This document shows positions 48,853 through 61,913 of a stretch of 64,000 nucleotides of DNA, piece after piece; position 1 is the first letter of the stretch; every line of letters begins with the position of its first letter. The notes below the pieces were generated by a model, which worked only from the letters and a program-made list of their open reading frames with translations, had not been told where the DNA came from and made no database searches. Source of the stretch: Candidatus Heimdallarchaeota archaeon (GTDB taxonomy: Archaea; Asgardarchaeota; Heimdallarchaeia; JABLTI01); the NCBI GenBank assembly GCA_019058275.1, contig JAHLVW010000062.1, positions 62,001 through 126,000 of the forward strand, read 5' to 3'. The translations under genes were made by a program, and so were the position numbers.

Positions 48853-49092
48853 TTAATTGAAATATAGTTCTTGTCCTCCAACATCGATAGCTGATAATGA
48901 CCATCCACTTATTGTTATTGGATTCTGTCTTATATCAATACCCAAAGTTGTTCTTGGATCTTTCATAACTGGTTCGCCAGTTTCTAAATAACGTACTAAT
49001 GTAGTTTTACCTGCTCCTGAAGCTCCTAAGATAACCAAGCTTGCTTTGAGCTCTACCTTTTTTTGTCCAAAAAGTTTTGAAAGCCAACTCAT
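48853..49092 (-). pseudogene. Truncated Arf-like small GTPase (G1-G3 only)
   Basis: LVILGASGAGKTTLVRYLETGEPVMKDPRTTLGIDIRQNPITISGWSLSAIDVGGQELYFN* stops after G3; G4 (NKxD) and G5 absent. Confidence 0.65.
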
Positions 49093-50869: not shown

Positions 50870-51280
50870 TTAATCTGGTTTTTCCTTTAAGTGTTGTATT
50901 TTTTTTACTATTAGCTCTAAATCTTCATGATATTTAGGAATCTCCATAGCTAGTGCTTTTAATAGAAGTAATTTCTCTAATGATATAATCAAATAATTTT
51001 CTTTTACTATTGCATTTTGATTTAGATCAAAATAATTATGCCAGCGTATTGTCTTCCAAATCTCGAAATCATAGATACAGACACCTTTGTCTCCAAAAAT
51101 ATCTTTTAAATTATTAGGGTATTTTTTAGCTAATTGAACATAATCATCTTTTATAACAATAATATCATTATCATTTCCTGCTTTCCTTAAACCATAATAT
51201 TCCATTGCTTTTCCTCCAACTAGCAATGGTTTCTTGATGAATTTGTAGTTTAATATTTCAAGGTTTAATTCCATCATCAA
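50870..51280 (-). CDS. Nucleotidyltransferase-like protein (MNT/AbiEii-like fold, tentative)
   Basis: KKPLLVGGKAMEYYGLRKAGNDNDIIV (GG.A..yGLR...D.Di.v pattern) and helical tail SLEKLLLLKALAMEIPKYHEDLELIVKKI; start overlaps the stop of the upstream gene. Confidence 0.45.
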   Translation of the reverse strand: MMMELNLEILNYKFIKKPLLVGGKAMEYYGLRKAGNDNDIIVIKDDYVQLAKKYPNNLKDIFGDKGVCIYDFEIWKTIRWHNYFDLNQNAIVKENYLIISLEKLLLLKALAMEIPKYHEDLELIVKKIQHLKEKPD

Positions 51281-51978
51281 TCCTCAGTTGATCTTAACAT
51301 ACCTATCATTTGCTTCAAATCATTTGGATTGTCAAGAATTTCTATTAATGCTTTTTCTGGGTCTTTTTGATTTTCTAGAAATCTTGTTGTTAACATTAAA
51401 AGATCTCCTTTAAAACCAATAACTCCATGAATAGGCATTCCACCTATGCTTGAAACTTCTTTTACAGCAATATGATCTGCAGGTAGTGTAATTACTTTAT
51501 CTGATGTCGATTCCTCAAATGCTATTGTTTTGCATGGAAGATTTTCATCCCAGTTACCTAAAGCTGTCAAATAGCTTTTACCAAGTGCTAAATATATGAA
51601 ATCAGGATTCTCTTTCTCGATAATTTCTTGATAATCATTAGGGATAGTTAGCATATTTGCACGGTTGATAAGCTCTTCTTTTCTCATTTCAGTGAAACTG
51701 CATTCATATGGTGGCATCATATCATTTTCATTAACGATACCAAATCCTGCAGATACAATATAGTATCCAACATCAAACATTTTTCTCAAATGTCTTACAG
51801 CAGCATTTACACTGATATTAAGTGAACCTCGATACATGTCTTTAGCTTTATGCTTTTCTGTAAAATTCGGTAGATAAGCTTTTCTCATTTCCTTGGAACT
51901 GATTTGTTGACATGTAGGTTGATTTGGATAGGAAACTGCTTTTCTCTTGCTACATGAAGCGAATACTAGTATTTTCAT
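51277..51978 (-). CDS. DUF6884/YaaA-like CSKxK-motif protein
   Basis: FASCSKRKAV...KAKDMYRGSLNISVNAAVRHLRKMFDVGYYIVSAGFGIVNENDMMPPYECSF. Confidence 0.55.
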   Translation of the reverse strand: MKILVFASCSKRKAVSYPNQPTCQQISSKEMRKAYLPNFTEKHKAKDMYRGSLNISVNAAVRHLRKMFDVGYYIVSAGFGIVNENDMMPPYECSFTEMRKEELINRANMLTIPNDYQEIIEKENPDFIYLALGKSYLTALGNWDENLPCKTIAFEESTSDKVITLPADHIAVKEVSSIGGMPIHGVIGFKGDLLMLTTRFLENQKDPEKALIEILDNPNDLKQMIGMLRSTED

Positions 51979-51984
51979 TTTTAT

Positions 51985-52851
51985 TTATACACCCGTTTCT
52001 TTATTATGCAGATCTAGCGTCGAGGTTACTAAATCTACTAGTTTCCTTGCAAAAGGATTATCCATATTAATACTAAATAAGTGCTCATTGGCAATAGTTC
52101 TTTTTACCTTTACTAATTCTTGTATATCTAATTCTTCCAAATAAGAGTTTACCATCATTAGAGGTATTTTCACTTCATTTGACAATTCTTGTGGAGAGAG
52201 TGTTTTCTTCGTAGCTAGTAAAGTAAAGATGGCTAGTCGATTTCTATTAGAGATGATTTCAAGTTTAGCTGGTTCCATTTTTACTTTATCATATACTTTT
52301 TTCTCTTTTTTCACTCGATCTAATGCAAATTGTTTTGCTCGTTCTAGTGCCTTTTCACTATTTTCTACAAGATAGACTAGTTGTAATGAACGCATTTTCT
52401 GAAATGTTGTTTCTAATGATGTAAAAACTTCAGATGAAACTCCACCAGCTTTTGAGTATATCACTACATGAATTCCTAAATCCACTGCAAGAGATATTTG
52501 TATCCTTGTTTCGTTTCCCCCACCAATTGCAATCAAACAGTCACAAGAATAGACAAATGACCAGCTATATTCACTTCCGATTATTGTTGTAGCAACTGTT
52601 ACATGAGAATCTTGATTCCCAACATCTTTGTAGTTTCCTGGAACAATATTAACATTTATTCCTCCAGCATCATTGACTCCTTTTGTAATAGCTTCTGCTA
52701 CACCTGTTGCTCCACTTACAAGAACTGCTATATTCAATGTTCTTCCTAAAGCAAAACCCAATTTGTATGAGAAATCCCAAGTATCCTTATCTTGTTCATT
52801 ATTCATATCAAGTGTTTTGCTGCCTACAACAGATATCTGAAGTTTTCTCAT
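51985..52851 (-). CDS. SLOG (LOG/TIR-like Rossmann nucleotide-sensor) domain protein with C-terminal winged helix
   Basis: ISVVGSKTL...LGFALGRTLNIAVLVSGATGVAEAITKGVNDAGGINVNIVPG...SCDCLIAIGGGNETRIQISLAVDLGIHVVIYSKAGG; wHTH ISNRNRLAIFTLLATKKTLSPQELSNEVKIPLMMVNSYLEELDIQELVKVKRTIANEHLFSI. Confidence 0.7.
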   Translation of the reverse strand: MRKLQISVVGSKTLDMNNEQDKDTWDFSYKLGFALGRTLNIAVLVSGATGVAEAITKGVNDAGGINVNIVPGNYKDVGNQDSHVTVATTIIGSEYSWSFVYSCDCLIAIGGGNETRIQISLAVDLGIHVVIYSKAGGVSSEVFTSLETTFQKMRSLQLVYLVENSEKALERAKQFALDRVKKEKKVYDKVKMEPAKLEIISNRNRLAIFTLLATKKTLSPQELSNEVKIPLMMVNSYLEELDIQELVKVKRTIANEHLFSINMDNPFARKLVDLVTSTLDLHNKETGV

Positions 52852-52950
52852 GGATAGTAGACAAGAAACAAAGTATTTGTTTTTTTCGATTGAGATAGTT
52901 TGCTATTCTAATTATGGATTTATAAGGACAATTGATTAATACTTGATGAA

Positions 52951-52967
52951 TGTTAGTTTGTCTAACA
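52951..52967. promoter_or_regulatory. Inverted repeat in the divergent SLOG/HD promoter region
   Basis: TGTTAG-TTTGT-CTAACA, 31 bp upstream of the HD gene ATG. Confidence 0.3.
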
Positions 52968-52997
52968 AAATTAAAAACATAATTTACAGGGATTAAA

Positions 52998-54320
52998 ATG
53001 ATAGTTCGAGATCCTGTCCATGGTGACATTAAATTCACTGAAAATGAAGCTCAAGTTATTGATTGTCTAGAAGTTCAAAGACTACGTGGTGTCAAGCAAT
53101 TAGGTACAACCTACTTGGTCTATCCAGGAGCATTACACACAAGATTTGATCATAGCTTAGGAACAGCTTACTTGTCCAAAATTATCATACAAAACATCAG
53201 AAAGAATGGATTTGAGATCGATAATGAAACAGAAGAACTTGTTTCAATTGCAGGAATAATACATGACATTACACATGTGCCTTATGGTCATACCTTTGAA
53301 GATGAAAGAAAAATCTTTCAAAGACATGACAAAAGTGATAATTTTAAAAATATTCTAGCAAGTGGACAGATTGGTGATTTATTAAATCAATTGGGTTACG
53401 AAACTAAATTGCTAAAAATGCTAACCCAAAAAGAAGATCCTACAATAAAATCCCGGGAAGATCCCTGGATGGGACAGATAATTAATGATACTATCTGTTC
53501 AGATTTACTAGATTATATTAGAAGAGATTGTTATTACACAGGCATTAACAAGAATTATGATAATCGAGTATTCAGCTATTTCATTGTTGAAGATGGAAAA
53601 TTAGTTCTTAATTTTGTGAAAAACAAAATGGAACGATCTGATGCCAGATCTGAAGTTCTTCATCTTTTACGATTAAGGTTCTTCCTTACTGAAAGAGTTT
53701 ATTTCCATCATGCAAAACTATCCTCTGGAGCAATGATCTCAAAAGCTGTAGAATTAGCAGTAATAGCTGGTCAACTTACTCGAGAAGGGCTCTACAAGTT
53801 AAATGACTGGACGTTATTTAGATTCCTAATAGGTGAACCAGATCCAAAACCAGTTGATTCTCCAATTCGCAAACTGATAGAACGTGTTCAAAACAGACAA
53901 TTATTAAAACGTGCTTATGTCCTATCAAGCGCAACCTTAAGTTCTAGGAAGAGTCGTGAGGATTTCATTCAGAAATTTAATCCACCAACAAATGAAAGAG
54001 AACAAGTAGAAGATATGATTATTGATCGTCTAAAAAATATTACAAAAGATAAAACCATCAATAAAGCAGATGTCATTATTCATTGTTTAAGCTCATCTTC
54101 CCTGAAGGAAGCAGAGGTTTTAATCAAAAACAAAGAGAGAAAAATTGTTCAACTTAATGTACGTCCCCATCCATCAGCTGATATTAAGGTTATTGAGGAT
54201 GCTTATGAAGATTTATGGCGTATGTATGTTTTTGCTAATCCTAAATATGCTAAAGAAGTAGGAAAAATATGTGAAGAAACCTTCGGACGAGATAATGAAT
54301 ATTCACCCAAAAAAATGTAG
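52998..54320 (+). CDS. HD-domain phosphohydrolase, SAMHD1/dGTPase-like
   Basis: VRDPVHGDIKFTENEAQVIDCLEVQRLRGVKQLGTTYLVYPGALHTRFDHSLGTAYL, GIIHDITHVPYGHTFEDER, DLLDYIRRDCYYTG. Confidence 0.9.
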   Translation: MIVRDPVHGDIKFTENEAQVIDCLEVQRLRGVKQLGTTYLVYPGALHTRFDHSLGTAYLSKIIIQNIRKNGFEIDNETEELVSIAGIIHDITHVPYGHTFEDERKIFQRHDKSDNFKNILASGQIGDLLNQLGYETKLLKMLTQKEDPTIKSREDPWMGQIINDTICSDLLDYIRRDCYYTGINKNYDNRVFSYFIVEDGKLVLNFVKNKMERSDARSEVLHLLRLRFFLTERVYFHHAKLSSGAMISKAVELAVIAGQLTREGLYKLNDWTLFRFLIGEPDPKPVDSPIRKLIERVQNRQLLKRAYVLSSATLSSRKSREDFIQKFNPPTNEREQVEDMIIDRLKNITKDKTINKADVIIHCLSSSSLKEAEVLIKNKERKIVQLNVRPHPSADIKVIEDAYEDLWRMYVFANPKYAKEVGKICEETFGRDNEYSPKKM

Positions 54321-61109: not shown

Positions 61110-61913
61110 ATGAAAGATCAAGAATTAAGTAAAATTAAAACATTTCAAACAAAGATTTTTGACTGGTGGAATACAAACAAACGCGAATTTCCCTGGAGAG
61201 AAACCACAGATCCTTATTTTGTTCTGCTTTCTGAAGTTATGCTGCAGCAAACACAGGCTACAAGGTCTATTGAGAAGTTTAAGCAATTTGTCGAGTCATT
61301 TCCAACAATTGATAGTTTAGCTGAAGCTCAAAAATCTGAGGTTCTAAAACAATGGTCTGGATTGGGTTATAATAGAAGAGCACTGTGGTTACAAGAAGCA
61401 GCAAAACAAATAATTGAGTTGGGAGATTTTCCTAAGTTTCCTGAAGCATTACAAGCTTTGAAAGGTATAGGCCCCTATACAGGAAGAGCAATATTGATTT
61501 TTGCTTTTAATTATGATTTATCAACAGTTGATACAAACATAAGAAGGATTTTGATAGCAGAGGGATTTGCTTCTGAGACTAATACAGAGAAAGAACTTTA
61601 TGATATAGCATTCAAAATACAACCAAAAGGGCGTTCAAGAGATTGGTATAGTGCTTTAATGGATTATGGTGCTACTGTACTAACAGCTGCAAAAACCGGA
61701 ATAAAACCTGTAACAAGCCAATCAAAATACAAAAACTCGAAGAGATTCTTTAGAGGTAAGATAGTTAAATTACTAACAATTCGAGAGAAAGCAACAAAAA
61801 ATAGGATCAGTAAAGAATGTAAAATACCAATAGTTGAAATTGACACGATTTTAGAGAAACTAGTTTCAGATGGTTTAATAAAAAAAGAAAGAAAAAGCTA
61901 TTCTTTGCCATAA
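61110..61913 (+). CDS. MutY/Endo III-family (HhH-GPD) DNA glycosylase without Fe-S motif, plus C-terminal wHTH-like tail
   Basis: WWNTNKREFPWRETTDPYFVLLSEVMLQQTQATR, WSGLGYNRRALWLQEAA, LKGIGPYTGRAILIFAF, STVDTNIRRIL; no C-X6-C-X2-C-X5-C. Confidence 0.88.
   Translation: MKDQELSKIKTFQTKIFDWWNTNKREFPWRETTDPYFVLLSEVMLQQTQATRSIEKFKQFVESFPTIDSLAEAQKSEVLKQWSGLGYNRRALWLQEAAKQIIELGDFPKFPEALQALKGIGPYTGRAILIFAFNYDLSTVDTNIRRILIAEGFASETNTEKELYDIAFKIQPKGRSRDWYSALMDYGATVLTAAKTGIKPVTSQSKYKNSKRFFRGKIVKLLTIREKATKNRISKECKIPIVEIDTILEKLVSDGLIKKERKSYSLP

Follow-up and report, generated by a model that had tools for sequence, protein, structure and literature searches.

The locus lies in a 64,000-nucleotide stretch of a Candidatus Heimdallarchaeota genome (the window; G000:C55:62001-126000, where G000 is the host genome), and coordinates below are those of the window unless a locus is named. 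A gene encoding a SLOG (LDcluster4) domain fused to an ArsR-like winged helix-turn-helix (wHTH) domain (51985-52851, minus strand) is followed, after a 6-bp gap, by a gene for a DUF6884 protein related to YaaA and DpdC (51277-51978, minus strand), which overlaps by 4 bp with a gene for a small nucleotidyltransferase (NTase)-like protein (50870-51280, minus strand). Facing this array is a plus-strand gene for an HD phosphohydrolase (52998-54320), a candidate dNTPase of the SAMHD1/EF1143 type. The HD and SLOG-wHTH genes diverge across 146 bp (52852-52997), so this region must hold both promoters. Orthologues of these ORFs show purifying selection, indicating that these are real genes, and the ORF coordinates agree with the strands, overlap, gap and divergence reported in the first-pass annotation. 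Its domain assignments for the SLOG, wHTH, DUF6884 and HD regions were likewise recovered by Pfam, PDB and Foldseek comparisons, whereas the NTase assignment is plausible, with weak matches.

The SLOG domain of the fusion protein occupies residues about 3-146, with a helix extending to about residue 182, and matches Pfam LDcluster4 (PF18306; 3.1e-15, 56.5 bits against a cut-off of 26.3), a family matched by 7/7 SLOG-wHTH orthologues. Its best sequence relatives in PDB are the TIGR00725/molybdenum cofactor carrier-like SLOG proteins (1rcu, 2iz5), which belong to the same SLOG fold family; a profile search matched 1rcu at 2e-11. Unlike these proteins, the fusion scores under the cut-off of the TIGR00725 model (3e-19), has a wHTH domain in addition and shows no GTxxE motif. 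The winged helix (residues about 195-280) gives a weak Pfam match (HTH_20, 0.0047), and in Foldseek searches the modelled C-terminus (residues about 200-280, pLDDT about 65-88) resembles ArsR-family repressors in PDB, namely PagR (TM-score normalised to target 0.80), NolR and CzrA. The C-terminal domain is accordingly modelled as an ArsR-type winged helix; the SLOG half of the model, which was of low confidence and built on a thin alignment, was left uninterpreted.

The glycine-rich loop of the SLOG domain sets the fusions apart. The LOG catalytic motif GGxGTxxE is absent and is replaced by GGGxETxxQ in 7/7 fusions, in contrast to the 22/22 stand-alone Asgard SLOG proteins examined, all of which carry GTxxE. 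The glutamate of GTxxE is the catalytic residue of LOG phosphoribohydrolases; given its replacement, LOG chemistry has probably been lost from the fusion and ligand binding kept. The motif does not support a LOG-type phosphoribohydrolase identity, and the substitution suggests that the fusion is a sensor rather than a LOG-type enzyme. Outside the genus, the SLOG relatives stand alone, as proteins of about 160-210 aa. No fusion turned up in the other relatives among 147 searched, and across 228 Asgard genomes of the phylum the winged helix was found in no SLOG fusion beyond the genus. When 84,980 species genomes were scanned with genus-derived patterns, which limit sensitivity, only the genus matched. 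The architecture recalls that of the CARF-wHTH proteins of the Csa3 type, in which a Rossmann-type ligand-binding domain also precedes a winged helix and which are predicted to be direct transcriptional regulators (PMC4012209). However, the Asgard fusion has a SLOG (LDcluster4) domain instead of CARF, along with an ArsR-type winged helix; no CARF family is among the Pfam or PADLOC matches of the protein, and no CRISPR or cas genes were found beside its gene.

The HD protein matches the Pfam families HD (PF01966; 6.6e-8) and HD_assoc_2 (PF19276; 7.6e-16) and, in PDB, 9mr6 (4.6e-31), 2hek (2.5e-28) and SAMHD1 (1.3e-22). It carries the full motif set of the SAMHD1/EF1143 (2o6i)/2hek enzymes, that is, the H...HD...D metal site and the active-site histidine, and its PDB sequence matches range from 1e-15 to 5e-31. 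Residues H52, H89-D90, H93, H98 and D169 are invariant in the 9 genomes of the genus and, by equivalence to SAMHD1, are the metal and catalytic residues. The protein is probably a metal-dependent dNTP triphosphohydrolase; it differs from SAMHD1, EF1143 and 2hek in being a genus-specific archaeal paralogue of predicted activity that is paired with a SLOG regulator. Identity is 71-95% within the genus, about 33% or less over the length outside it, and likewise about 33% or less to the second copy of the host (contig C61). Several relatives outside the genus, as well as the C61 copy, adjoin genes that we read as Hef-like helicase or UbiD/UbiX-like, the neighbour of the C61 copy being Hef-like. 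The HD gene is present at one and the same site in 9/9 genomes of the genus, with dN/dS of about 0.04-0.12, comparable to that of the housekeeping neighbour FTR, and such constraint and positional stability are more in keeping with nucleotide homeostasis than with a defence gene of rapid turnover.

The pairing of the two genes was assessed in the nine genomes of the genus (G000-G008). FTR, HD and SLOG-wHTH occur together, with HD and SLOG-wHTH divergent, in G000, G002, G003, G004, G005, G007 and G008 and, up to the contig end, in G006, so that both genes of the pair are present in 8/9 genomes. The stable unit in the genus is the SLOG-wHTH/HD pair next to FTR. In the ninth genome, G001 (L078:1219-1834), HD is intact and the SLOG gene is cut to 32 codons by an in-frame internal deletion, which joins the first 20 residues (MRKLQIAVIGSKSLDLNNEQ) directly to the C-terminal VRKFLQLI. 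The deletion coincides with a short direct repeat, the copies of which are AATGAACA in the N-terminal part and, close to the end of the intact G007 gene, AATGAGCA. The event has the look of a natural deletion, although the assembly may be in error. Because G001 keeps HD, DUF6884 and the conserved promoter block described below, HD does not need SLOG. Further out, the locus is flanked by housekeeping genes whose synteny is conserved (FTR, M20 peptidase, H+-pyrophosphatase, EndoIII-like), and a scan of ten neighbours turned up no other credible defence gene. PADLOC matched a 'type II nicking endonuclease' at 61110-61913, but Pfam identifies this protein as EndoIII-like, of the HhH-GPD repair type, and it was not counted as defence. 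Conserved synteny is confined to the genus and takes in FTR and other genes besides, so adjacency counts for little as independent evidence of the pairing. The window also encodes a 79-aa N-terminal fragment of an Arf-like GTPase (48853-49092); the orthologue is 191 aa long in G003 and G002, so the copy in the window looks truncated or frameshifted.

Alignment of the divergent regions reveals a conserved block, AATTGATTAATACTTGA (52930-52946, plus strand), within which 12 bp, AATTSATTAATA, are unchanged in 9/9 genomes. The 17-mer AATTSATTAATANTTGA has an exact match in 7/9 genomes, in each case here and nowhere else, and G008 and G005 have near-matches at the same intergenic site. Elsewhere, single-mismatch matches are of the same order as with a reversed-pattern control, and no regulon is claimed. 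The block lacks clean palindromic symmetry, and its ATTAATA core resembles an archaeal TATA element. It could serve as an operator or as the core promoter of HD (a possible TATA region), and its retention in G001, which lacks an intact SLOG gene, fits either alternative.

The DUF6884 protein scores over the Pfam cut-off (PF21818; 3.8e-8, 34 against 30) and matches the PADLOC DpdC models at 1e-8. It shares with YfjM, YaaA and DpdC the CxxxK and SAxxG motifs, here CSKRK and VSAGFG; CxxxK and LSAxxG are motifs of the DUF6884 family, which the Pfam authors tie to DNA binding or repair (PMC11701544), and dpdC genes are reported to carry the same Pfam domain (PMC11888242). In contrast to DpdC in Dpd systems, no DpdA partner was found for the DUF6884 protein of the window: no DpdA-like gene was matched in G000 (about 93% complete), which led us to reject Dpd membership, and the rest of the genus yields weak matches at best (top 1.5e-7), as expected for an ordinary TGT. 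The gene lies downstream of SLOG-wHTH on the same strand in G000, G002, G003, G005 and G004 (there spanning two contigs) and is adjacent but inverted in G001, G007 and G008; its place in the SLOG operon is therefore not constant.

Outside the genus, DUF6884 relatives are linked to an unrelated protein of 293-295 aa and an alpha/beta-hydrolase-like gene. In six genomes, DUF6884 is adjoined by a 263-295-aa protein with the motif CKGLRSIN (L086:6242-7123; relatives in L082, L083, L085, L087 and L088), and the one such protein scanned had no Pfam match. In two genomes, DUF6884 lies beside a true DpdA homologue (G042, L149:6170-8997, PADLOC 1e-97; G019, L084:2817-8075, 1e-107), in what is possibly an archaeal Dpd-like DNA modification locus. 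In G042, the DUF6884 and DpdA genes overlap by 4 bp, and the same DUF6884 protein continues into a region resembling a separate protein of other genomes. Within the genus, a DUF6884 paralogue on contig C26 of G008 (L080:918-7602) is found in a restriction-like context, beside two DNA-methyltransferase-like genes and an AIPR/AbiU-like protein whose N-terminus weakly matches the Mrr type.

The NTase-like protein has no Pfam match of its own. Among its 12 homologues, six touch the DUF2204 nucleotidyl transferase family (best 0.018) and one touches AbiEii (0.0065), all below cut-offs. It resembles MNT/AbiEii/DUF2204 nucleotidyltransferases in its GG...DxD...E pattern (G22 G23, D37, D39, E73), invariant in the 12 homologues, and in a C-terminal K/D motif; unlike MNT and AbiEii systems, it has no recognised HEPN or AbiEi partner and scores under all cut-offs. 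With such weak matches despite the invariant pattern, an NTase identity is plausible, not proven. A structure predicted from the single sequence (pLDDT 45) was discarded. The gene behaves as an optional passenger. It is intact in 2/9 genomes of the genus (G000, G004); G002 retains a truncated remnant containing a stop, and no copy was found in the close sister G003, where the other proteins of the locus share 93-96% identity with those of the window. Relatives 49-59% identical occur in ten genomes of another family as unlinked single genes with unrelated neighbours; the neighbours are DUF6884 and a zinc-ribbon protein in the window and vary in the 10 other loci (read as ORFs, a minority also by profile scan).

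We put at roughly even chances that the SLOG-ArsR fusion is a one-component regulator of the genus-specific dNTPase, the two divergently transcribed genes forming a two-gene unit. The fusion would repress the shared promoter region (the HD promoter, the SLOG promoter or both); the SLOG domain, without the LOG-type catalytic glutamate, would bind a nucleotide-derived ligand without cleaving it, and the ligand would alter the grip of the winged helix on DNA, such that repression is relieved or strengthened and HD output follows the cell's nucleotide state. DUF6884 and NTase, whose genes were placed beside the pair in some species, would be accessory or separate. The dNTPase activity, the repression, the class of ligand and which promoter is controlled are what we infer here. 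The first-pass annotation had already proposed the fusion as a ligand-responsive repressor; the ArsR-like fold, the ETxxQ motif and the genus-wide pairing support such a role, with the divergent HD gene as the likely target. The role would most likely be nucleotide homeostasis rather than proven immunity. More tentatively, the pair could be an Asgard lineage's own dNTP-pool switch, a nucleotide-sensing SLOG-ArsR factor with a dedicated dNTPase, possibly used against viruses.

It is also possible, if somewhat doubtful, that the SLOG-wHTH protein is purely autoregulatory or controls other genes, in which case HD would be an independent neighbour and the conserved block just its core promoter. 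The persistence of HD and the block in G001, the TATA-like core and a genus-wide synteny that takes in the unrelated FTR all agree with such independence, but the fusion and the HD paralogue are both genus-restricted and have stayed in their facing arrangement while rearrangement affected the cluster's other side. It is quite improbable that SLOG, DUF6884 and perhaps NTase form a Dpd-like set for nucleic-acid base modification or repair, with HD incidental: the DpdC scores of DUF6884 and its position next to true DpdA in G042 and G019 point that way, but no SLOG was seen at the DpdA loci, and G000 has no detectable DpdA-like gene while the rest of the genus has the weak matches noted above.

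The first-pass annotation had joined all four genes in one antiviral module, in which SLOG would sense an infection signal and de-repress a dNTP-depleting HD enzyme together with the DUF6884 and NTase genes. The SLOG, dNTPase and NTase families do occur in defence, the four genes are tightly packed in the window, and the DUF6884 paralogue of G008 adjoins AIPR/AbiU-like and DNA-methyltransferase-like genes. Nevertheless, we regard this module as unlikely. Within the genus, its membership dissolves with the loss or decay of NTase and the inversion of DUF6884 in 3/9 genomes; HD shows no patchy gain and loss and is as constrained as FTR; the locus lies among housekeeping genes and in no defence island; no NTase was found in viral contigs; and HD reaches 22.8 bits against a cut-off of 400 on the anti-phage dGTPase model NF041026. 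Linkage across Asgard genomes had also been expected, with scattered homologues named as the finding that would speak against it, and outside the genus the homologues are indeed scattered among unrelated genes. Nothing shows that the locus is a defence system.

SLOG domains are usually treated either as enzymes or as sensors of conflict systems. The parts of the locus are already known, whereas a SLOG-ArsR fusion facing a dNTPase-type gene appears undescribed as far as the literature searched shows, the 2015 survey of SLOG systems lying outside that search. If the fusion does regulate HD as proposed, a SLOG domain in Asgard archaea has become the sensing part of a transcription factor that serves a SAMHD1-type enzyme. 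The pair would then offer a small case in which nucleotide-responsive control of dNTP breakdown can be tested directly, with G001 as a ready natural knockout of SLOG-wHTH.
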